From Eubacteriaceae bacterium (GTDB lineage Bacteria > Bacillota > Clostridia > Lachnospirales > Lachnospiraceae): 38,090 nt of DNA. Positions 3,433 through 28,200 of this stretch are shown piece by piece. Location: contig CAJTFB010000037.1 of assembly GCA_910575665.1 (NCBI GenBank), positions 1-38,090 of the forward strand, read 5' to 3'. The notes under the pieces were generated by a model. It made no database searches and was not told the origin of the DNA. It saw only the letters and a program-made list of their open reading frames with translations. The translations under genes were made by a program, and so were the position numbers. The stretch's first letter is position 1, and each line of letters begins with the position of its first letter.

Positions 3433-4080
3433 ATGATTTCATTACTTTGGACAAGGCTGCGGAAGCGAAAAGCCATGATAGTTATTCCAATTTTCATAAT
3501 AGGGATATTAGTGCCGATTATGTGTTTTTATTTTTCGGTACTATATGTGGAGGAACCAGAACGAATTGTTGAAGAGGTAATAGCTCTTTTACATACCTGT
3601 ATACCTATGACGGGATGTTGGTGGATCATTCTTTTGTATCAGGATTTTTTTGAATGGGAGGGAAACGAACTTCTTTATTATTACCATTCCTGGAGAAAGC
3701 TCATTAAAGAATATATCTTTGTTGTGGCAGTTTATGTGGGAGTATCTGGTTTCATCGTTTTTTGCATACAACAAACAATAGAATTCCCGCTTTTTGTAAT
3801 TGGACAGCTTAGCGTTGAGACCGTGTTTATTGCTTCACTAACTTTATTTTCTTCTTTTCTTTTGCAAAATACAGGGGGGAGTTTACTGGTTGTAATTGCC
3901 TATTGTGTGTATTTAAATCACTTTGATTCCCTGGGAATATTTCAGTTTATGTCTGTGTTTCCCCGGCGTGAGGAATTTCTAAATTTAAATGTGGGGTTAT
4001 TGAGAAATGCTTTCATTAGCTCAGGAATAATTTGTATATTAGGAAGTGCATGTATAGGCTGGCGCAGAGGATATAAATGA
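3433..4080 (+). CDS. Six-helix membrane protein, likely ABC-2-type permease subunit
   Basis: This is a 215-residue hydrophobic protein with about six membrane segments. I start it at ATG 3433; its ribosome binding site AGGGAG (3418-3423) overlaps the end of the ATPase gene, which indicates translational coupling. A longer frame reaching back into the ATPase gene is unlikely because it would add a non-hydrophobic, cysteine-rich segment. I see no family motif. By position it is the second permease or an immunity protein of the secreted-peptide unit. The unit appears to end here, because an insertion sequence begins a few bases after the stop. Whether further genes were lost when that element arrived cannot be told. 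Confidence 0.7.
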   Translation: MISLLWTRLRKRKAMIVIPIFIIGILVPIMCFYFSVLYVEEPERIVEEVIALLHTCIPMTGCWWIILLYQDFFEWEGNELLYYYHSWRKLIKEYIFVVAVYVGVSGFIVFCIQQTIEFPLFVIGQLSVETVFIASLTLFSSFLLQNTGGSLLVVIAYCVYLNHFDSLGIFQFMSVFPRREEFLNLNVGLLRNAFISSGIICILGSACIGWRRGYK

Positions 4081-4092
4081 CTCCTCCCATCG

Positions 4093-5570
4093 AGTGTGTG
4101 AAGAAAAGTCTGTAATTACTAATCTTCTATGATAATTTTGGTGCTGAAATCTCTTTGCCAGGGTTTCGGCACCTGCTTTATTTATACCAGTACATGCCGG
4201 GGCATGTCAAGAGCAGGCGGAAATTTCCGCCTGCTAATCAGACTTTTTCAGAATTTAATCAGGCAGCCGTCCTTCATACATAATACTTAACTCCCCATAG
4301 ACCTGCCCCCCAGTTCCTGAGCGGCATGGTCCATTTCTTGGTCGCCTCAAAAGTGGACAGATACAATGCCTTTAACAGAGCCGTATCGCTCGGAAATACA
4401 CTTCTCTGACGGTTTAACTTACGGTAAGTCGCATTCAGGCTTTCGATTGCGTTTGTGGTATAAATGACCTTCCGTACATTGCTTGAAAATTTGAAGATGG
4501 GGGATATGGCATCCCAGTTCTGTTTCCAGCTCTTCATGGAATTTGGATATTTTGTACTCCATTTTTCCATTACCCGTTCTAATGCTTCCAGTGCCTTTTC
4601 TTCTGTCGGTGACTGATAGATCGTTTTCAGGTCTGCCGCGAAGGGTTTTCTGTCTTTGTCAGCCACATATTTCATTGTATTCCGTACTTGGTGGACGATA
4701 CACCTCTGGTATTCTGTCTGGGGATATGCTGCTGCAATCGCTTCTTTTATTCCGGTCAGCCCGTCCGCACAAATGATCAGAATGTCTTTTACACCTCTGT
4801 TTTTTAATCCGTTCAGAATAGAGAGCCAGTATTTCGCACTTTCATTTTCTCCGATCTCAATGGTCAGGACTTCTTTGTATCCGTCCTGGCTGATGCCCAG
4901 AATAACGTAAGCAGCAAGTTTACGGATCACGCCGTTGTCACGCACAGAGTAGTGGATGGCATCTATGTAGAGCACGGGATAAACCTCTGAGAGAGGGCGG
5001 TTCTGCCAGTCTTCAATCTGCGGCATGATCTTGTCTGTCACATCAGAGATGAAGCCTTCGGATGCTTCAAAACCATAGATATCGTCTAATGTTTCCGATA
5101 TCTGGCGCGTGGTCATGCCCTTTGCGTACATGGAGATGATTTTCTGGTCGATATCGGTCCTTTTGCCGCTTTTTCACTACCTGTGGCTCAAAGGTGGATT
5201 TCCTGTCCTGTGGCACAGTGATCTCCATGCTTCCATAGCTGCTGTTGACCTTTTTCTTTTTGTAGCCGTTGCGGTAGTCATCATTGTCGGAACGCTGGGA
5301 TTTGCCGTAGCCAAGATGGTCCTCCATTTCTGCTTCCATCATTTCTTTGATGGTTCCGCCAAGCAGATCTTTTAAGGCCTCCTGAATATCCTGGGCAGAT
5401 TCAATATCCTATTCCAGCAGGAGCATTTGGATGATGTTGCGTTTTCTTTCTGTCATTTCAACTTTGTGTACATTTTTCTTTTCTTTTGCCATAATAAAAG
5501 GCTCCTATGAATTTATTTTATCATAGAAGACCAGCTATTTCTTTACTTTACAGAAAAAGTCTCACAGACT
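4093..5570 (-). mobile_element. Decayed IS256-family insertion sequence
   Basis: The element is bounded by related inverted ends. The left edge reads AGTGTGTGA with TCTGTAA and later TCTTCTATGATAA. The right edge, on the minus strand, reads AGTCTGTGA with TCTGTAA and TCTTCTATGATAA. A mutator-type (IS256) transposase reading frame fills the interior on the minus strand but is broken. I found no convincing target duplication: the flanks are CCCATCG on the left and CCCCTAAT on the right. The exact ends may be off by a few bases. Confidence 0.75.
4255..5492 (-). pseudogene. IS256-family transposase, broken by a stop and two frameshifts
   Basis: Read on the minus strand, the gene starts at ATG 5492 (MAKEKKNVHK) behind AGGAGCC and would end at TAA 4257-4255 (YEGRLPD), about the usual length of roughly 400 residues for mutator-type transposases. 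The core is clearly this family: DAIHYSVRDNG, the CADGLTGI segment with a catalytic Asp, RCIVHQVRN and YTTNAIESLN. Three lesions are visible. There is an in-frame TAG at 5411-5409 (codon 28). A frameshift near 5155-5165 separates VVKKRQKD from DQKIISMYAKG. An extra G in a run of six near 4303-4311 puts the last 19 codons out of frame. The copy should be unable to move itself, though an intact relative could act on its ends. Confidence 0.85.
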
Positions 5571-19870: not shown

Positions 19871-19899
19871 TTCACAAAATGACAAAAATTTCATACAAT
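19871..19899 (+). promoter_or_regulatory. Promoter of the SsuBC-type transporter
   Basis: TTCACA (19871-19876) and TACAAT (19894-19899) are 17 bases apart, each one mismatch from consensus. Transcription would begin about 20 bases before the ATPase start codon. Confidence 0.65.
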
Positions 19900-19926
19900 G
19901 AGATATATCCACAGGGGAGGCAGCGT

Positions 19927-20700
19927 ATGGGAAATATTTTGTCATTTCGTCATATATCCTATTCCTACCACAGTGTAAACGGAGAAACCCTCGCTTTAGA
20001 TGATCTGAGTTTTGATGTGAAAGACGGAGAATTTCTCGCTGTCGTCGGTCCAAGCGGCTGCGGCAAATCCACCCTGCTTTCTATCATTGCCGGCCTGATC
20101 GAGCCGGATTCCGGAGAGGTTTTGATTGAAAATACACAGCGGGATAAATCAGGTGTCAATATCGGTTATATGCTTCAGAGAGATCATCTTCTGGACTGGA
20201 AAAATACCTGGCAGAATGCGGCGCTGGGCTTATCGATTCAGAAGAAAAACTGGGACGGGGACAAAATCATGCTGCTGAATCATCTGTTTCAGACCTATGG
20301 TCTGGTGTCTTTTGAAAAAGCAAAGCCATCAGAGCTCTCCGGCGGCATGCGTCAGAGAGTTGCCCTGATCCGTACACTGTTGATGGAACCAGATCTGCTT
20401 CTTCTGGACGAACCATTTTCCGCACTGGACTACCAGACAAGACTGGAGGTCTCGGACGATATCTGGAAGATTATAAAAAAAGAAAAAAAGACGGCGATTC
20501 TTATCACCCATGATATTTCGGAAGCCATCAGTATGGGGGATCGGGTTCTGGTCCTTACCTCAAGACCGGCTCAGTTGAAAAAAGAGATATGTATCGACCT
20601 CAGCTATGAGGGGGAGATCACTCCGTTCAAGGCGAGAAGTACACCGGAATTTCAAGATTATTTCAATGAAATATGGGAGGAATTGAACGGTGGAAAATAA
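19927..20700 (+). CDS. SsuB/TauB-type ABC transporter ATPase
   Basis: This is a 257-residue importer ATPase with Walker A GPSGCGKST, signature LSGGMRQR, Walker B LLLLDEPFSAL and switch His ITHD. The pattern DHLLDWKN and the RPAQLKKEI region fit the nitrate/sulfonate/taurine/thiamine-precursor subclass. I start at ATG 19927 after GGGGAGG; an in-frame ATG at 19879 lacks a site. It overlaps the permease gene by 11 bases. The substrate cannot be read from the ATPase. Confidence 0.9.
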   Translation: MGNILSFRHISYSYHSVNGETLALDDLSFDVKDGEFLAVVGPSGCGKSTLLSIIAGLIEPDSGEVLIENTQRDKSGVNIGYMLQRDHLLDWKNTWQNAALGLSIQKKNWDGDKIMLLNHLFQTYGLVSFEKAKPSELSGGMRQRVALIRTLLMEPDLLLLDEPFSALDYQTRLEVSDDIWKIIKKEKKTAILITHDISEAISMGDRVLVLTSRPAQLKKEICIDLSYEGEITPFKARSTPEFQDYFNEIWEELNGGK

Positions 20701-21517
20701 CATATCAATCCGTACATTAAAACGAAGTCTTTCTGGGGACATATCGGAACGCCAGCGGGAATTTATCCTTTCCTGCATCCGTCAGAAACGGAAGGTGAGG
20801 GTTCTCCAGATCAGTATATTTATTCTTTTTATCCTGGTCTGGGAGGTAACCGCTCATTTTGGCATCATTGACCCCTTTGTATTCAGTAGTCCCTCCCGCA
20901 TGGCAGAATGTTTTGTCCAGCTCTCGGCAGACGGAAGCATTTACTACCACATCGGGGTGACATTGTTTGAAACCTTTTTAAGTTTCTTTTTTATCATGTT
21001 TTTTGGAATTCTCACTGCCATCCTGCTCTGGTGGAACGATACGGTGGCAAAGGTGAGCGAGCCCTATCTGGTGGTGCTGAACAGTTTGCCCAAAACCGCC
21101 CTTGCCCCGGTGTTTATCGTATGGCTGGGAAATAATATGAAGACCATCATAGTGGCGGCTGTATCGGTGGCTGTCTTCGGAAGCATTATCACACTGTTTA
21201 CCGCCTTCTGTTCCGTGGAGGAGGAGAAGATCAAACTGATCCGCACGCTGGGAGGAAATCGCATCGACATACTGAGGTATATTGTCCTGCCAGGAAATGC
21301 CCACACCATCGTCAGCAATATGAAGGTCAATATCGGATTGTCCCTGGTGGGGGTGATCATCGGTGAATTTCTCGCCGCCAATGCTGGGCTGGGCTATCTG
21401 ATTGTATACGGAAGCCAGGTGTTTAAACTAGATTATGTGATCTTAAGCATTGTGATCCTGTGTATTGTGGCCACCGGGCTCTATAAGGGGCTGGAGGCGC
21501 TGGAAAAGCATTGGTGA
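20690..21517 (+). CDS. SsuC/TauC-type ABC transporter permease
   Basis: This is a 275-residue membrane protein of the nitrate/sulfonate/taurine importer type, with about six helices. The conserved cytoplasmic EAA-like loop is visible as RTLGGNRIDILRYIVLPGN. It starts at GTG 20690, 9 bases after GGGAGG, inside the end of the ATPase gene. The usual periplasmic-type binding protein gene is not in the window next to it, so the transporter either relies on a binding protein encoded elsewhere or lost it. A strong terminator follows 23 bases after the stop. Confidence 0.9.
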   Translation: MENNISIRTLKRSLSGDISERQREFILSCIRQKRKVRVLQISIFILFILVWEVTAHFGIIDPFVFSSPSRMAECFVQLSADGSIYYHIGVTLFETFLSFFFIMFFGILTAILLWWNDTVAKVSEPYLVVLNSLPKTALAPVFIVWLGNNMKTIIVAAVSVAVFGSIITLFTAFCSVEEEKIKLIRTLGGNRIDILRYIVLPGNAHTIVSNMKVNIGLSLVGVIIGEFLAANAGLGYLIVYGSQVFKLDYVILSIVILCIVATGLYKGLEALEKHW

Positions 21518-21802: not shown

Positions 21803-24800
21803 ATGAGGAGATTAATTGCTATTCTGCTCACCGGATGTCTGGCTTTTCAGACCTGGACAGCGGCGGCTGTACCGGCAAGTGCTGGTTCCAAGACGGAAAA
21901 AACAGCCCAGGAGAGCAGTGAAAATTCGAATCGTGAAAGTGTGTCACAGACAGAGAGCGGACTGGAAGTAGAAATCCGATCTTCCCGTCTGTTCCCTTTT
22001 CAGGGAAAGGCAACGATACAGATCCGTGGCGGCGAGGTAGAAGAATCCAAAGAGCTGCAATTTAGCGGTTCCGATTCGACCTCGGCAAGCCAGCGGTTTG
22101 ATGTCCCCCAGGGAGATTACACTGTTACGATCAAGTCCGATAAATTTGCTGACTACAAACAGAAGGTTCAGGTGTCCAAGGGCTGGGTGTCAAAGATTCA
22201 GGTTTGGGCGGCCAGGTATGAGAACGGAAGAGGGGCCAGTCCCGGATGGATCCGTCAGGGAGATATCAATGGGGATGGCATGATTGACCAGAAGGATACC
22301 GAACTGATGTTGTCAGCGGTCCGGGAAGATCCGAAAAAAAGCGATACCGATCTGAACCAGGATGGAAATACGGATCTGGTGGATCTACAAAACCTGGTAC
22401 AGGGAATCGATGAAAAACAGGAATCCAATATCGAAAAGCTGGCGCTTCTCAGAAAAGTGCAGACCGTCGAGGGAACGACGGTAGAGGGCAGCATGGAAGC
22501 CTTTCTCAGCCGTTCCGAAGGCATTGTTTTGAAACCATCCAACGCCGGTGCTGCGATCTCAGCAGACAATCCAGTGGCCCTTGAATTTACATTGGCAGAG
22601 GATGGGGCACAGGATACGGAAGATATCCCAAAGATACAGGGGATCGCTATTCATGCGCCGATGAAAGCGGAAGAGGGAGAGGATGTGTCCAGTGAGATCC
22701 TGGATGGAGAAGCACAAATAGTTGCTGTCGATGAGAAGGGGAATGAACAGGAGCTAACGCTTCCTCTTGCCTCAGAATCGAAGCAGAGCATGTCATTAAG
22801 GGCATATTCGGCGAATCCGAAGGTTCATGTGGATGCAGACGGTTCACTGATCCTGGATTTTGGAACCCAGATCGCTGTTAAGAGAGTAACGATTAAGATC
22901 ACAGGTACGAAAAAAACCGAGCCGCTGGTCAACCTGGCGAAGGTGGAGTTTGTCAACAACATGGAGGACCGCATCGCCCCTCCGAATCTTGACATACCGA
23001 CGCTGAATGCCCCGGTATCGGAAAATAAGGCTTTGACAGTGTCCTGGGATGCACAGACCAATATTACAGGTTATGAAGTCTACGTGTCTGGTCCAGTGAA
23101 AGGCCAGGCAGAAAATGTGACACAGATCATCCGTGTCTCCGGTACAGTACATACGATCAGTGGGATCAATGATAAAGAGTTAATTAATTTTGAAAAATAT
23201 AAAATTAAGGTACGTTCGGTAAATGGGGACTGGAAGAGTCCCTGGTCCAATGAGCAGACCGGAATTCCTAAACCTCAGAAGCTGCCGGCTCCCCCGGATT
23301 ATGTAAAAGCAGAAGGGGGATACCGCTCCATCAGCGTGTCATGGAAGGACATGGAAGATGCAGCTGGTTATATGGTATATTACAAAAAGTCAACAGATAC
23401 AGAATTTGTTCCGGTGGTGAAAGATTTCCAGCCAGTACAGGCAGGAACCGGAAAGCTGGAGGATGCGCGTTACGTGATATCTGGCCTGGAGGACAATGTA
23501 GAATATTCGGTGTATGTTATAAGCTGGAATGAGCTGGGATGGGGCAAGGCTTCTCTTGTATCCTCAGCAGTTACGAAGGATGACAGCCCGCCTCAGCTTC
23601 CGACGTATAAGCTGTTAAATACCTCCAAAGGCGAGGGTGTATTGAGCGACCATATCATAAATGCTACTATCGGTGGAAGCGGGGGAGCTAAGATGGTTAG
23701 CAGCCCGTTAGATACATCTGCTGGCAGTGCGCTGGGACTGGTGGATAATAATTTTGGCTCCTACTGGATCAAGTCTGACTGGGATGACGGAGTCGCTTAT
23801 CCAAGTCTTGGCAAGGGAATGATCATAACTCTGGATGATGATTATCCGATGAACTATATAACCTTTGCGGCCGCTGATCAGAAAACTTCGGTGGACGTTG
23901 TGAGGATCGGATACTGGAACAAGGAAAATCCAGATAAGGAGCAGATCGTAAACGCCCGCCTGATCCAGAAGAAAGATGAAAATAATAATCCTTATTATAT
24001 TGTAAAATTTGACGGCGCGATCACGGCGAATAAGATCCACATGTGCCTTGGCAGAAGCTGGGGAGGTTCTGGAGATCTCATGGTCGGGGAGATACATTTT
24101 CACAAATATGACTCCCTGGAAGATGATATCATGAAACTGTATGAAGATGAGATGCATACGACCCTGCGTAAAGATGTGACAGAAGCTGTCATCGCAGCCC
24201 TGGAAGAACGGCTCAATAGGATAGATGAAGAGAGCGGAGAAAAACATCCTCTGTTCCAGGAGCTGACACTGGAGATCAAGACGGCAAGAGAGATATTGAA
24301 TTCCAAGCTGGACCCTTCTCTTAGAGTGGAAAACAGGATCACAGGGCAGAAGGATAAACATCTTGGCTTTGGCGGCTTAAATCCATGGCAGCCGCTGGGA
24401 AAGGCTGCTTATGCCGGCGAGACACTTCTGGTATATGTGGGACATAACACAAAGAGAACCGGAGATTCCACCAATCTGCAGCTGATCGTGACCCAGCATC
24501 ACGCAGAGGCAGATAGTCTTGCCAAAGGGATCAATCTAAAGATAGGACGAAATGAGATCACGGTTCCGCAGCTCACTTCCAATACATTTGAGAGGGGCGG
24601 TCAGCTCTACATCGCTTACACAGGAAATAATTCCTCTGACCAGTATGCTGTCCGTATCAGCGGCGGTAGCAGTATTCCAGTATTAAGCGTCTACGGGAAG
24701 ACCGGCAGTGAGCGGACGGAGGCCATCAGCGCCTATGTAAAACAGCTTGAGAGCTATGTAAACACGATTCAGCCGGGACACGATGAAAAACATACTGGCA

Positions 24801-27019
24801 CAAAAAATGTAGATTATGATTACGATGTAACAAACTGTATCCTGAATGCGACGGATATCATGATGAAGGATATGATGTATTCGGTTCCTGCCACGCAGGT
24901 CTGGGCGGCGATCAAGAATGCAGAAGATAAAACAGAAAAATTAGATAACTCCCTGAAGGCGATGGAAGATACCATGACGTTGTTCTATCAGCACAAGGGC
25001 CTCAGTGATGACGCAGGCACCAAGAGAGGTAACAATGCCCTACCTGCACAGCATCTGAATATACGGTACATGAGAATGTTCGCTGGCGCATTTATGTATG
25101 CGGCGGGTAACCACATTGGAGTGGAGTGGGGATCCACCACACTGGCAGGCGGACCGAATGACTGGTCTGGCTTCGGATGGGGTGTTGCCCATGAGATCGG
25201 CCATAATATCAACCAGGGAACCTATGCGGTGGCAGAGATCACCAACAACTATTTTGCACAGCTTCTGACGAAGACGCCGGGCAAGACCAGGTTCCAATAT
25301 CCAAAGGTGTACGAGAAGGTGACCTCTGGAACCATCGGCCGCTCTTCCAATGTGAGTACGCAGCTGGCATTATACTGGCAGCTTCATCTGGCATTTGATA
25401 ATCAAACGGATGACAGACATATCTTTGATGATTATGAAGAGCAGTTTAACAACCTCTTCTTTGCCCGTGTGGATACTTATTCCAGAAACCCTGATAAAGC
25501 GCCACAGTCAGGCCTGTCATTGAAGGGAGGCACGGACCAGAATCTTATGCGTCTCGCCTGTGCCGCAGCAAATAAAAATATTCTGCCGTTTTTCCAGCGG
25601 TGGGGTATGGTGCCGGATGAGGAAACAAAGGCTTACGCCCAGAAATATGGAGAAGCAGAGACGAAGGCATTGTATTATGTAAATGACGATGCCAGAGATT
25701 ACCGCGCAGCCCATACCGGCGAAGAGGGAACGATTTTGAACCAGGATGTGGTAACTGCTACCGTGGCGGCGAAATCAAACCAGGTAGAGGTTACGATTGC
25801 AACAGAACAGAACAAGGATCTGATACTTGGTTATGAGATTCTTAGAAGCATGACTTCAAATGGAAAAAAAGAGACGAAAGTAGTTGGCTTCCAGCCAATT
25901 GACACCGCTCAGAACACGGTATATGTGGATTCCATTTCCTCCATAAACAACAGAGTTATGGAGTATGAGGTACGGGCAGTGGATAAGTATCTGAACTATT
26001 CCAATTCAGCTCAGGCGGGATCTGTTAAGATACAGACAGATGGTGTGCTGGATAAAACGGAATGGACGGTTGAAACCACTATGACGTCGGAGGATGATGT
26101 GGCGATTGATTCGGATATCGAAGATCCCGACAGTGGGTATCACGCAGAAGATCCGGGCAGCATCGGAGAAAAGAAAGTACACAGTATCGACCGGATTCTC
26201 GATCAGGACAGAACAGAGTCCGGGACTTATCACGGTATAAGCGAAGGAAACGCAGTGATCACCATAGATATGCACAAGACCGAACAGGTAACAGCATTGA
26301 AATATCAGGGAGATGCATTGACCGGGATGACCATCGAGGTCAGTCCAGATGGAAGCGCGTGGACGGTAGTAAAAGAAGGTTATACAGGATTGTCCGGAAC
26401 CGGGGAACAGACCGTATGGTTTGATTCTGTGAAGGAAGATTTAAGAGACAGCTGGATCGGTACCTACGATGCCAGATATGTGAAAATGACCATTCCGCAG
26501 TCCGGCGAGATTGCGATCCAGGAGATCGAGATATGCGGGCCATCGGGAGACAATCTGGAATTTATGGAAGCAGAAGAGAATACGCCGGCAGTTGGTGTGT
26601 TGACTGCAGACTATAAATATGGCAGCCAGGATTCGGATGTAATTAAAAAAGGTTCTTTGATATTTACAGGAACCTATAAAGGAAATCCAGCTTACAATGT
26701 CGTTGTATTATATGATACAGAAGGAAATGTAATTGGTGCAAAAGAGGACGCGGTTCAGGCAGGTCAGGTTATATTTGCCGATGTACCAGAGCAGGGAAAT
26801 CTTGGCGAGACCTCAAACGGAACATGGGTATACTACGTAGAGCCTGGTCAGTGGGATGCCGCTTCCCTGCAGAAGATCAAGGGGGTTCGCGGTGAACTTT
26901 ACCGGGTGGACGATGCCCTGACGTTAGAAGGAGAGCGTATCGTCAGTGATACCCAGACCATCCAGCTTCCAGATTCTCTGCCGGATATTACATTAACAGG
27001 ATCCAAATACGGATCGTGA
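21803..27019 (+). CDS. Secreted M60-family metallopeptidase with dockerin-like, FN3 and discoidin-like domains
   Basis: This is a 1,738-residue secreted protein. Residues 1-27 are a signal peptide ending ASA. About 153-205 is a dockerin-like pair of calcium loops (DINGDGMIDQKD and DLNQDGNTDLVD). Two FN3 domains follow (about 393-490 and 492-592), then a discoidin-like domain (about 602-773). The peptidase M60 (enhancin-like) domain spans about 855-1165, with zinc motif HEIGHN at 1130-1135. Another FN3-like segment (about 1315-1415), a second discoidin-like domain (about 1418-1585) and an unknown tail follow. M60 enzymes cut mucin-type O-glycoproteins, so a role in host mucus is likely. There is no LPXTG anchor, so the dockerin may attach it. 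A dockerin near the N-terminus rather than the C-terminus is unusual. Confidence 0.88.
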   Translation: MRRLIAILLTGCLAFQTWTAAAVPASAGSKTEKTAQESSENSNRESVSQTESGLEVEIRSSRLFPFQGKATIQIRGGEVEESKELQFSGSDSTSASQRFDVPQGDYTVTIKSDKFADYKQKVQVSKGWVSKIQVWAARYENGRGASPGWIRQGDINGDGMIDQKDTELMLSAVREDPKKSDTDLNQDGNTDLVDLQNLVQGIDEKQESNIEKLALLRKVQTVEGTTVEGSMEAFLSRSEGIVLKPSNAGAAISADNPVALEFTLAEDGAQDTEDIPKIQGIAIHAPMKAEEGEDVSSEILDGEAQIVAVDEKGNEQELTLPLASESKQSMSLRAYSANPKVHVDADGSLILDFGTQIAVKRVTIKITGTKKTEPLVNLAKVEFVNNMEDRIAPPNLDIPTLNAPVSENKALTVSWDAQTNITGYEVYVSGPVKGQAENVTQIIRVSGTVHTISGINDKELINFEKYKIKVRSVNGDWKSPWSNEQTGIPKPQKLPAPPDYVKAEGGYRSISVSWKDMEDAAGYMVYYKKSTDTEFVPVVKDFQPVQAGTGKLEDARYVISGLEDNVEYSVYVISWNELGWGKASLVSSAVTKDDSPPQLPTYKLLNTSKGEGVLSDHIINATIGGSGGAKMVSSPLDTSAGSALGLVDNNFGSYWIKSDWDDGVAYPSLGKGMIITLDDDYPMNYITFAAADQKTSVDVVRIGYWNKENPDKEQIVNARLIQKKDENNNPYYIVKFDGAITANKIHMCLGRSWGGSGDLMVGEIHFHKYDSLEDDIMKLYEDEMHTTLRKDVTEAVIAALEERLNRIDEESGEKHPLFQELTLEIKTAREILNSKLDPSLRVENRITGQKDKHLGFGGLNPWQPLGKAAYAGETLLVYVGHNTKRTGDSTNLQLIVTQHHAEADSLAKGINLKIGRNEITVPQLTSNTFERGGQLYIAYTGNNSSDQYAVRISGGSSIPVLSVYGKTGSERTEAISAYVKQLESYVNTIQPGHDEKHTGTKNVDYDYDVTNCILNATDIMMKDMMYSVPATQVWAAIKNAEDKTEKLDNSLKAMEDTMTLFYQHKGLSDDAGTKRGNNALPAQHLNIRYMRMFAGAFMYAAGNHIGVEWGSTTLAGGPNDWSGFGWGVAHEIGHNINQGTYAVAEITNNYFAQLLTKTPGKTRFQYPKVYEKVTSGTIGRSSNVSTQLALYWQLHLAFDNQTDDRHIFDDYEEQFNNLFFARVDTYSRNPDKAPQSGLSLKGGTDQNLMRLACAAANKNILPFFQRWGMVPDEETKAYAQKYGEAETKALYYVNDDARDYRAAHTGEEGTILNQDVVTATVAAKSNQVEVTIATEQNKDLILGYEILRSMTSNGKKETKVVGFQPIDTAQNTVYVDSISSINNRVMEYEVRAVDKYLNYSNSAQAGSVKIQTDGVLDKTEWTVETTMTSEDDVAIDSDIEDPDSGYHAEDPGSIGEKKVHSIDRILDQDRTESGTYHGISEGNAVITIDMHKTEQVTALKYQGDALTGMTIEVSPDGSAWTVVKEGYTGLSGTGEQTVWFDSVKEDLRDSWIGTYDARYVKMTIPQSGEIAIQEIEICGPSGDNLEFMEAEENTPAVGVLTADYKYGSQDSDVIKKGSLIFTGTYKGNPAYNVVVLYDTEGNVIGAKEDAVQAGQVIFADVPEQGNLGETSNGTWVYYVEPGQWDAASLQKIKGVRGELYRVDDALTLEGERIVSDTQTIQLPDSLPDITLTGSKYGS

Positions 27020-27045
27020 CATGGATAGGGAGGTTCGTGAGAAAA

Positions 27046-28200
27046 ATGAAAAAAATCATATTATTCTTCGTGGCAGCACTTTTGCTTGCTGCCACGGTTC
27101 CCACGGCTGCCAAAGCGGCAGGAAACGGCAGTGGTACGCTTACCGTAGACAAAAATAATGTGTCTGTGTCGCTGGCCATACCAGGGGGAAAGACAAAGAC
27201 CATCACGTCCCTGCGTGTGCAGCTGCGGGTGTCAGTCACCAGTGGTACGATGGATCAGCCGGATTTCACCTTTGACGCTTCGATTCCAAGTACCGTGAAA
27301 AGTGCTGCGGTCAAAAAAGACGGTAGTGCCTATATGGTGGATATCGTTTTGTCAGGGAAAAAGAATCAGGATATATTCAAAAACAGTGAGAATGCCAAAC
27401 TGGGAATTCTGTCCGTGAAGCCTACCAGCGCAGAGTATCAGATCAAAGTAGAATTTGCAGGTAAGGCAGATGGCGTCAATGGTCCTGTTATAAAGTATGC
27501 GGAAAGCAGCAGTCTGTCGGAGGTGACACTTTCGCTGTCCAATGCTCTTCCAGCGACCGTGGAATCAGCGAATCATACAACCACACCACCTTCTGGAAAG
27601 ACTTTGGGCAAACCGAAATTGACTACCACAGTAAAGAAAGGAAAAAACCGCGTCTATTTTAAGTGGAACAAGATCAGCGGCGCCAGTGGATACAGGCTTT
27701 ATCGATACGATGAAAAAACGAAAAAGTACAAGAAGATAAAGACGATTACAAAAGGAGGAACAACATCCTATTCTAAAAAGTATGAGTATGCTTCTTCTCA
27801 CCGCTTCCGCATTCGTGCATTTAAAACAGAGGCAGGCGGAGCAAAGACTTATAGCAGCTACAGTTCGACTGTTAAGGTTACGGTGCCGCCGGCTAAGGTG
27901 AAAAAGTTCTCAGCGGAATACTGGAGCGATGGAAAGGCTGCCCTCCTGTGGAAGAAGGTCAGCAAGGCCAAAGGTTATCAGATATACCGCAGCAGGAAAA
28001 AGAATGGAAAATACCTCCGCGTAAAAACGATCCGAAAGGGCAAGATCACCAAATGCACTAGCGTAAAACATAAACTCGGCAAAACCTATTATTACAAGAT
28101 CAGAGCTTATGTCACAGGTGCGAATAAAAAACGTGTTTATGGTAAATTCAGTGTAGTGGTACCATACAAAAATAAGGGTAGCTCGAAGGCGCCAATTTGA
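27046..28200 (+). CDS. Secreted protein with possible cohesin-like domain and two FN3 repeats
   Basis: This is a 384-residue protein from ATG 27046; GTG 27037 is an alternative, since GGGAGG lies 3 bases from it and 12 from the ATG. A signal peptide (ending AAKA) is clear. Residues about 27-185 form a beta-rich domain whose end (KLGILSVKPT, then VEFAGKADGVNG) resembles the last strands of cohesins. Two lysine- and tyrosine-rich FN3 repeats follow (about 190-280 and 285-375), each with GYRLYR or GYQIYR. It starts 26 bases after the M60 gene and should be cotranscribed. I infer that it may hold the dockerin of that enzyme at the surface. There is no sortase motif; the basic FN3 repeats might bind the wall. 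The last codons and stop lie inside a palindromic repeat element. Confidence 0.7.
   Translation: MKKIILFFVAALLLAATVPTAAKAAGNGSGTLTVDKNNVSVSLAIPGGKTKTITSLRVQLRVSVTSGTMDQPDFTFDASIPSTVKSAAVKKDGSAYMVDIVLSGKKNQDIFKNSENAKLGILSVKPTSAEYQIKVEFAGKADGVNGPVIKYAESSSLSEVTLSLSNALPATVESANHTTTPPSGKTLGKPKLTTTVKKGKNRVYFKWNKISGASGYRLYRYDEKTKKYKKIKTITKGGTTSYSKKYEYASSHRFRIRAFKTEAGGAKTYSSYSSTVKVTVPPAKVKKFSAEYWSDGKAALLWKKVSKAKGYQIYRSRKKNGKYLRVKTIRKGKITKCTSVKHKLGKTYYYKIRAYVTGANKKRVYGKFSVVVPYKNKGSSKAPI

Follow-up and report, generated by a model that had tools for sequence, protein, structure and literature searches.

A predicted X-dockerin M60 peptidase and a single-cohesin protein encoded side by side in Lachnospiraceae

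How a large secreted peptidase could be retained at the cell that releases it is the question raised by two neighbouring genes of a Eubacteriaceae bacterium, presumably a gut inhabitant, assigned to the Lachnospiraceae in GTDB (assembly GCA_910575665.1, contig CAJTFB010000037.1, positions 1 to 38,090; these 38,090 nucleotides are referred to as the window). The upstream gene (21803..27019, plus strand), identified from the list of open reading frames (ORFs) and a Pfam profile search, encodes an M60 metallopeptidase of 1738 aa, and the downstream gene (27046..28200, plus strand), identified from the ORF list, encodes a protein of 384 aa. The two genes lie head to tail with a 26-base gap between the protease stop codon and the ATG at 27046, which is more likely to be the start of the second gene than the GTG at 27016. 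Both reading frames are as described in an initial annotation of the window, in which a minimal cohesin-dockerin pair was proposed. On the basis of predicted folds and comparative genomics, we consider it quite likely that the two genes constitute a bicistronic surface-display cassette, in which an X-dockerin M60 protease is docked on a single-cohesin anchor.

The two predicted N-terminal modules

The N-terminal segment of the protease is predicted to be a type II-like X-dockerin. Residues about 148-205 (22244..22417, plus strand) were assigned to a dockerin based on profile matches and the predicted fold, and they include two calcium loops recognized by motif at residues 154-165 (22262..22297, plus strand) and 183-194 (22349..22384, plus strand), consistent with the two loops in dockerin arrangement described in the initial annotation. 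A loop pair of such spacing occurred in one of 20,000 shuffles of the protease sequence and in one of 77 long stop-to-stop frames of the window, and 66 of 74 aligned members, the window protein among them, have two canonical loops. The dockerin model contains two helices (model residues 116-128 and 145-154) and in this way two calcium-binding loop-helix motifs. The Dockerin_1 match of the window protein is sub-threshold (E 0.005, 17.5 bits vs a cut-off of 22.9), and 59 of the 74 members match Dockerin_1 at E 0.01. Packed immediately before the dockerin in the model is an Ig-like X-module (Ig/PEGA-like beta domain, residues about 54-140, 21962..22222, plus strand), which was assigned from a weak PEGA match, a profile match to X-dockerins in the PDB and the predicted fold; the eight top structural matches of the N-terminal model cover the X-module and the dockerin together, as does the profile match. 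The initial annotation mentioned neither this X-module nor how conserved the pair is.

The first domain of the downstream protein (residues about 25-172, 27118..27561, plus strand) is confidently predicted to be a divergent cohesin with the jelly-roll beta-sandwich fold, based on an AlphaFold2 model and its structural matches in the PDB, which include the C. perfringens X82 cohesins 2vo8, 2jh2 and 2w1n. A non-cohesin fold for residues 27-185, which would have spoken against the proposed pair, was thus not what the model gave. In sequence searches of Pfam and the PDB with this domain no cohesin was matched, none of the 74 members matched any Pfam family at E 0.01, and a search of NCBIfam returned only matches far under the cut-offs. 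Because it has no PF00963 sequence signature, the domain is a cohesin by fold and not a member of PF00963 as built.

Profile searches of this genome identified one confident X-dockerin, that of the protease, and one confident cohesin of this kind, and PF00404 and PF00963 gave no match in the genome at 1e-3. The further dockerin proteins that the initial annotation suggested looking for were not among the confident matches, and the arrangement is not that of a cellulosome or mucinolysome, defined by a multi-cohesin scaffoldin together with several dockerin enzymes; the downstream protein has one cohesin. Two weak genome matches (E 0.29 and E 0.023) were set aside by eye, one lying inside a Cna-B-like repeat protein and the other being a 47-residue partial match in an 89-aa frame.

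Pairing across genomes

A ten-row alignment of the protease, searched against the species genomes of GTDB, identified at least 499 relatives, and we retained the 80 best loci. The X-dockerin is present in 77 of these 80 loci, the other three matches beginning past that region (at residues 885, 643 and 299). The cohesin was detected in 78 by an iterated profile, with the partners in L135 and in the cut-off L110 found by six-frame profile searches. In 77 of the 80 loci the cohesin begins on the same strand less than 900 bases behind the protease frame, and in L147 it is fused to the protease; L098 and L106, the two loci that lack a cohesin match, both stop at the edge of a contig.

We screened a second sample, made up of 299 genomes that belong to the window's family and represent 298 genera. 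The cohesin was found in 26, and exactly these 26 are the ones whose X-dockerin match is no weaker than E 1.1e-16. These genomes contribute 27 cohesin loci, 25 of them on the contig of the X-dockerin and two (G632 and G080) on separate contigs. As a control, 21 M60 proteins in 145 relatives were inspected: 18 have an X-dockerin (that of G004 on another contig; G129 C2 included), and for these a cohesin was identified by profile in 16 cases, beside the protease, fused to it or on another contig, and by eye only in two (L067 and L172). For the three M60 proteins lacking an X-dockerin no such cohesin was found in the stretch fetched.

The cohesin profile misses the partners of the most distant proteases fetched, which in L067, L161, L165, L166, L170, L171 and L172 are cohesin-like by eye only; within one set of 12 stretches, L160, L161, L163 to L166, L170 and L171 were chosen for weak X-dockerin matches or from a class survey. 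In that survey the cohesin profile matched in 3 of 391 genomes, all three of which also have an X-dockerin match, and the X-dockerin profile matched in 132 of 391, in many of them via the dockerin part. The cohesin profile is probably too narrow at this distance, or else those dockerins serve other systems.

Two observations concern individual loci. L096 and L143 are overlapping pieces of contig CANQUH010000037.1, each with an M60 gene followed by a cohesin gene, apparently as tandem pairs, and the calcium loops of both are non-canonical. The pair is also carried by L135 on contig NZ_PPTT01000028.1 of Eggerthella sinensis DSM 16107, a label that we take to denote an actinomycete, suggesting either cross-phylum transfer or a mislabelled contig.

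Proposed anchoring of the cohesin protein and alternative readings

Behind the cohesin, the window protein has a lysine-rich tail with two fibronectin type III (FN3)-like repeats recognized by eye (27598..28197, plus strand), corresponding to the basic FN3 repeats that the initial annotation had reported for the partner; from its sequence and from like tails elsewhere in the genome we propose that it is a surface-retention module. The element at this position is exchanged between lineages. A hydrophobicity and motif rule identified a hydrophobic stretch that we read as a membrane helix in 36 of 75 downstream proteins and FN3-like motifs in 37, and the remaining two are FN3-like by eye. One protein (L119) has a classical LPQTG motif and others have TGD-type motifs, all of which presumably are sortase signals; choline-binding repeats are found in L061 and SLH repeats in L067. 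Because recognized anchors replace the FN3 tail in other lineages, we suggest that this tail, too, serves cell attachment. In the window's own genome, lysine-rich FN3 tails end a leucine-rich repeat (LRR) protein and two GH43-CBM6 enzymes (L153, L155 and L156), which fits a general retention module and points to one that is shared between these proteins. In L067, the gene immediately before the M60 gene (3834-5219, plus strand) encodes a second SLH protein, in which the N-terminal domain is cohesin-like by eye and Pfam detects SLH only.

In seven proteins (L062, L065, L066, L147, L167, L168 and L169) the cohesin is fused to the C-terminus of the protease. SLH repeats are added in L062, and a second, C-terminal dockerin is present in L147 and L168 by Pfam, in L167 at the cut-off (22.9 bits) and in L169 from inspection by eye together with a weak match of 13.5 bits. 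The N-terminal X-dockerin is kept in six of the seven in the fetched pieces. L169, the remaining one, is cut short, and an X-dockerin is found on a different contig of its genome. In L066 there is an insertion in the first loop and in L168 the first residue of this loop is changed. In the fused forms, docking may produce a closed clasp or a fibre, and the second dockerin may plug the mucinase into another cohesin. Pfam-type cohesins are encoded elsewhere in the genomes of L167, L168 and L169 (G691, G574 and G632) and in 7 of 12 other genomes checked, i.e. in 10 of 15 genomes with the system; the window's genome has none.

Combining the fold predictions with the genomic pairing, we suggest a model in which (i) the M60 protease would be secreted, (ii) its N-terminal X-dockerin would dock 1:1 and in a calcium-dependent manner on the N-terminal cohesin of the downstream protein, (iii) the cohesin protein would be kept on the envelope by the element behind the cohesin, here the two lysine-rich FN3-like repeats and, depending on the relative, SLH repeats, choline-binding repeats or a membrane helix that may or may not come with a sortase-type motif, and (iv) the large catalytic body of the probable mucin-cleaving protease would be held at the surface by its N-terminus. 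We infer the binding, its calcium dependence, the surface location and the mucin substrate. Several observations weigh against this model. In a co-divergence analysis of 75 paired sequences the X-dockerin was not distinct from the other protease domains, and we consequently base the case for binding on fold, genomic pairing and what is known of the family. The dyad is type II-like, yet for the cohesin model the type I cohesins give higher scores than the type II ones do, which also sets the pair apart from the type II system. In the family sample, the X-dockerin profile matches 18 further genomes (E 5e-15 to 9e-7), in many of them the dockerin part only; two of these were fetched, and in G586 the next gene has a cohesin (E 2.6e-8 in a small set) and in G713 it is cohesin-like by eye only. 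Finally, among 35 tails classed as FN3, six are not basic, their net charges ranging from -36 to +1.

Part of this evidence can be read differently. The cohesin protein could be a substrate adaptor. Its strongly basic FN3 tail would then bind a polyanion such as sialylated or sulfated mucin, and the pair would be a released two-part mucinase. The absence, by eye, of a hydrophobic C-terminal stretch or sortase motif from the window tail is consistent with this, as is the net charge of +14 to +58 in 29 of the 35 FN3 tails, but the six tails that are not basic argue against it, and so do the envelope anchors found at the same position elsewhere (hydrophobic stretches in 36 of 75, choline-binding and SLH repeats) and the tails of the same kind on the two GH43-CBM6 enzymes and the LRR protein of this genome, families that we take not to point to mucin. 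We regard an adaptor as unlikely. Still less probable, in our estimate, is that the X-dockerin and the cohesin each bind other partners, e.g. on another cell or scaffold. The fusion of both modules in one chain in some lineages, the co-divergence result, the mismatch in type and the Pfam-type cohesins in 10 of the 15 genomes would fit separate partners; the single confident copy of each module in this genome, the co-occurrence in 26 of 26 genomes, the pairing in 78 of 80 loci and the three M60 proteins that have neither an X-dockerin nor an adjoining cohesin of this kind speak for the two binding each other. The last alternative, which we hold to be very improbable, is that the second protein has some other kind of beta-sandwich at its N-terminus, such as a pilin or a Cna-like or CBM-like adhesin domain, with a general likeness to cohesins only. 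The domain has no sequence match to cohesins, and in Foldseek a Cna collagen-binding domain ranks first by E-value (1.0e-4), cohesins being close to it in E-value.

Taking the cassette together with its relatives, we lean slightly towards a broader reading: an obligate two-gene cassette of an X-dockerin mucinase and a mono-cohesin anchor would be widespread in Lachnospiraceae and other Clostridia and would have escaped notice because Pfam does not see its cohesin. The anchor would be an exchangeable slot, the fused forms, in which the loops are mostly kept, would constitute an intramolecular clasp or a head-to-tail fibre, and in L147, L167, L168 and L169 the second dockerin, at the C-terminus, would occupy the slot and connect the mucinase to a larger complex.

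Relation to known systems and the remainder of the locus

The pair looks like a stripped-down relative of the cellulosome attachment system with swappable cell anchors, and among the proteins to which it compares are the C. thermocellum surface proteins ScaD and ScaG, which we take to be OlpA and OlpC. Type II cohesin-X-dockerin attachment of cellulosomes has been described for C. thermocellum CipA/CipB with surface scaffoldins and for ScaA-ScaB in A. cellulolyticus (PMC5141474). The predicted X-module-dockerin fold is the same here, and so would be the cohesin on an envelope-anchored partner and the role in surface attachment; in cellulosomes, however, the X-dockerin is the last part of a scaffoldin loaded with many enzymes, whereas here it lies near the N-terminus of the enzyme itself, an M60 peptidase, with one cohesin and no scaffoldin. 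Similarly, ScaD and ScaG have one cohesin on a surface protein able to hold an enzyme directly, but as described (PMC5141474) they belong to a large multi-enzyme cellulosome and are not a dedicated one-to-one gene pair. The X82 cohesin-dockerin pairs of C. perfringens resemble this pair in being non-cellulosomal, pairwise and linked to host-glycan enzymes with one cohesin per protein (PMC12997984), the binding here being predicted. All five cohesin proteins of C. perfringens also carry a glycoside hydrolase domain (PMC12997984), whereas the cohesin protein here has no recognized enzyme domain and a tail that we read as an anchor, and its dockerin partner is an M60 protease. The Limousia mucinolysome likewise uses cohesin and dockerin for mucin and includes dockerin-bearing peptidases, but it has multi-cohesin scaffoldins and many dockerin enzymes that are detected by Pfam (PMC12997984), in contrast to a single pair with a Pfam-invisible cohesin.

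In a survey of M60-like proteins, Dockerin type 1 is given for 2 of 415 proteins, and the sequences from Clostridium and Bacillus in one figure are said to have no evident anchoring feature; the word "cohesin" does not occur in the main text of that paper (PMC3267712). X-dockerin surface attachment, the pairwise links of C. perfringens and the Limousia mucinolysome are thus already known, and the new element is the M60 X-dockerin with a dedicated mono-cohesin anchor, of which a search of the open-licence literature yielded no description, although a prior one may exist. If the model is correct, cohesin-dockerin attachment extends from fibre-degrading cellulosomes to a one-enzyme system with a probable mucinase in many Lachnospiraceae, and it would explain how an M60 protein without a visible C-terminal anchor is retained by the cell. 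It would also suggest a probable role for one family of small secreted proteins, in which the first domain is unmatched in Pfam; Pfam-based counts of cohesins would miss this family. The natural paired sequences with different anchors would provide a test bed for the co-evolution of the interface.

The remainder of the protease is consistent with the M60 assignment of the initial annotation. Residues 998-1268 (24794..25606, plus strand) match Peptidase_M60 (PF13402) with 52.3 bits against a curated cut-off of 25.8 (E 7.9e-14), and residues 1130-1145 (25190..25237, plus strand) contain HEIGH (1130-1134) followed, with ten residues between, by E1145, all invariant or near-invariant in a 10-row alignment. 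This agrees with the gluzincin motif HExxH-x(8,28)-E of the family (PMC3267712). The catalytic domain and motif are shared with mucinases of the BT4244 type, and since mucin degradation has been demonstrated for BT4244, which unlike the window protease is a lipoprotein (PMC3267712), the window protease probably cleaves mucin. A putative signal peptide was recognized by eye at residues 1-27 (21803..21883, plus strand). Pfam identifies two FN3 stretches, the better at residues 497-588 (23291..23566, plus strand), and an F5/8 type C-like (galactose-binding-type) domain slightly below the cut-off (26198..26500, plus strand).

Directly upstream of the protease gene, at 19879-21517, are genes for an ABC transporter ATPase and permease, and the window's ORF list has no plus-strand ORF of at least 100 aa, e.g. 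for a substrate-binding protein, between them and the protease gene. The flanks of the pair vary by lineage: the window has an ABC transporter and glycogen synthase, L037 has genes recognized by eye as trp genes, and L038 has others.
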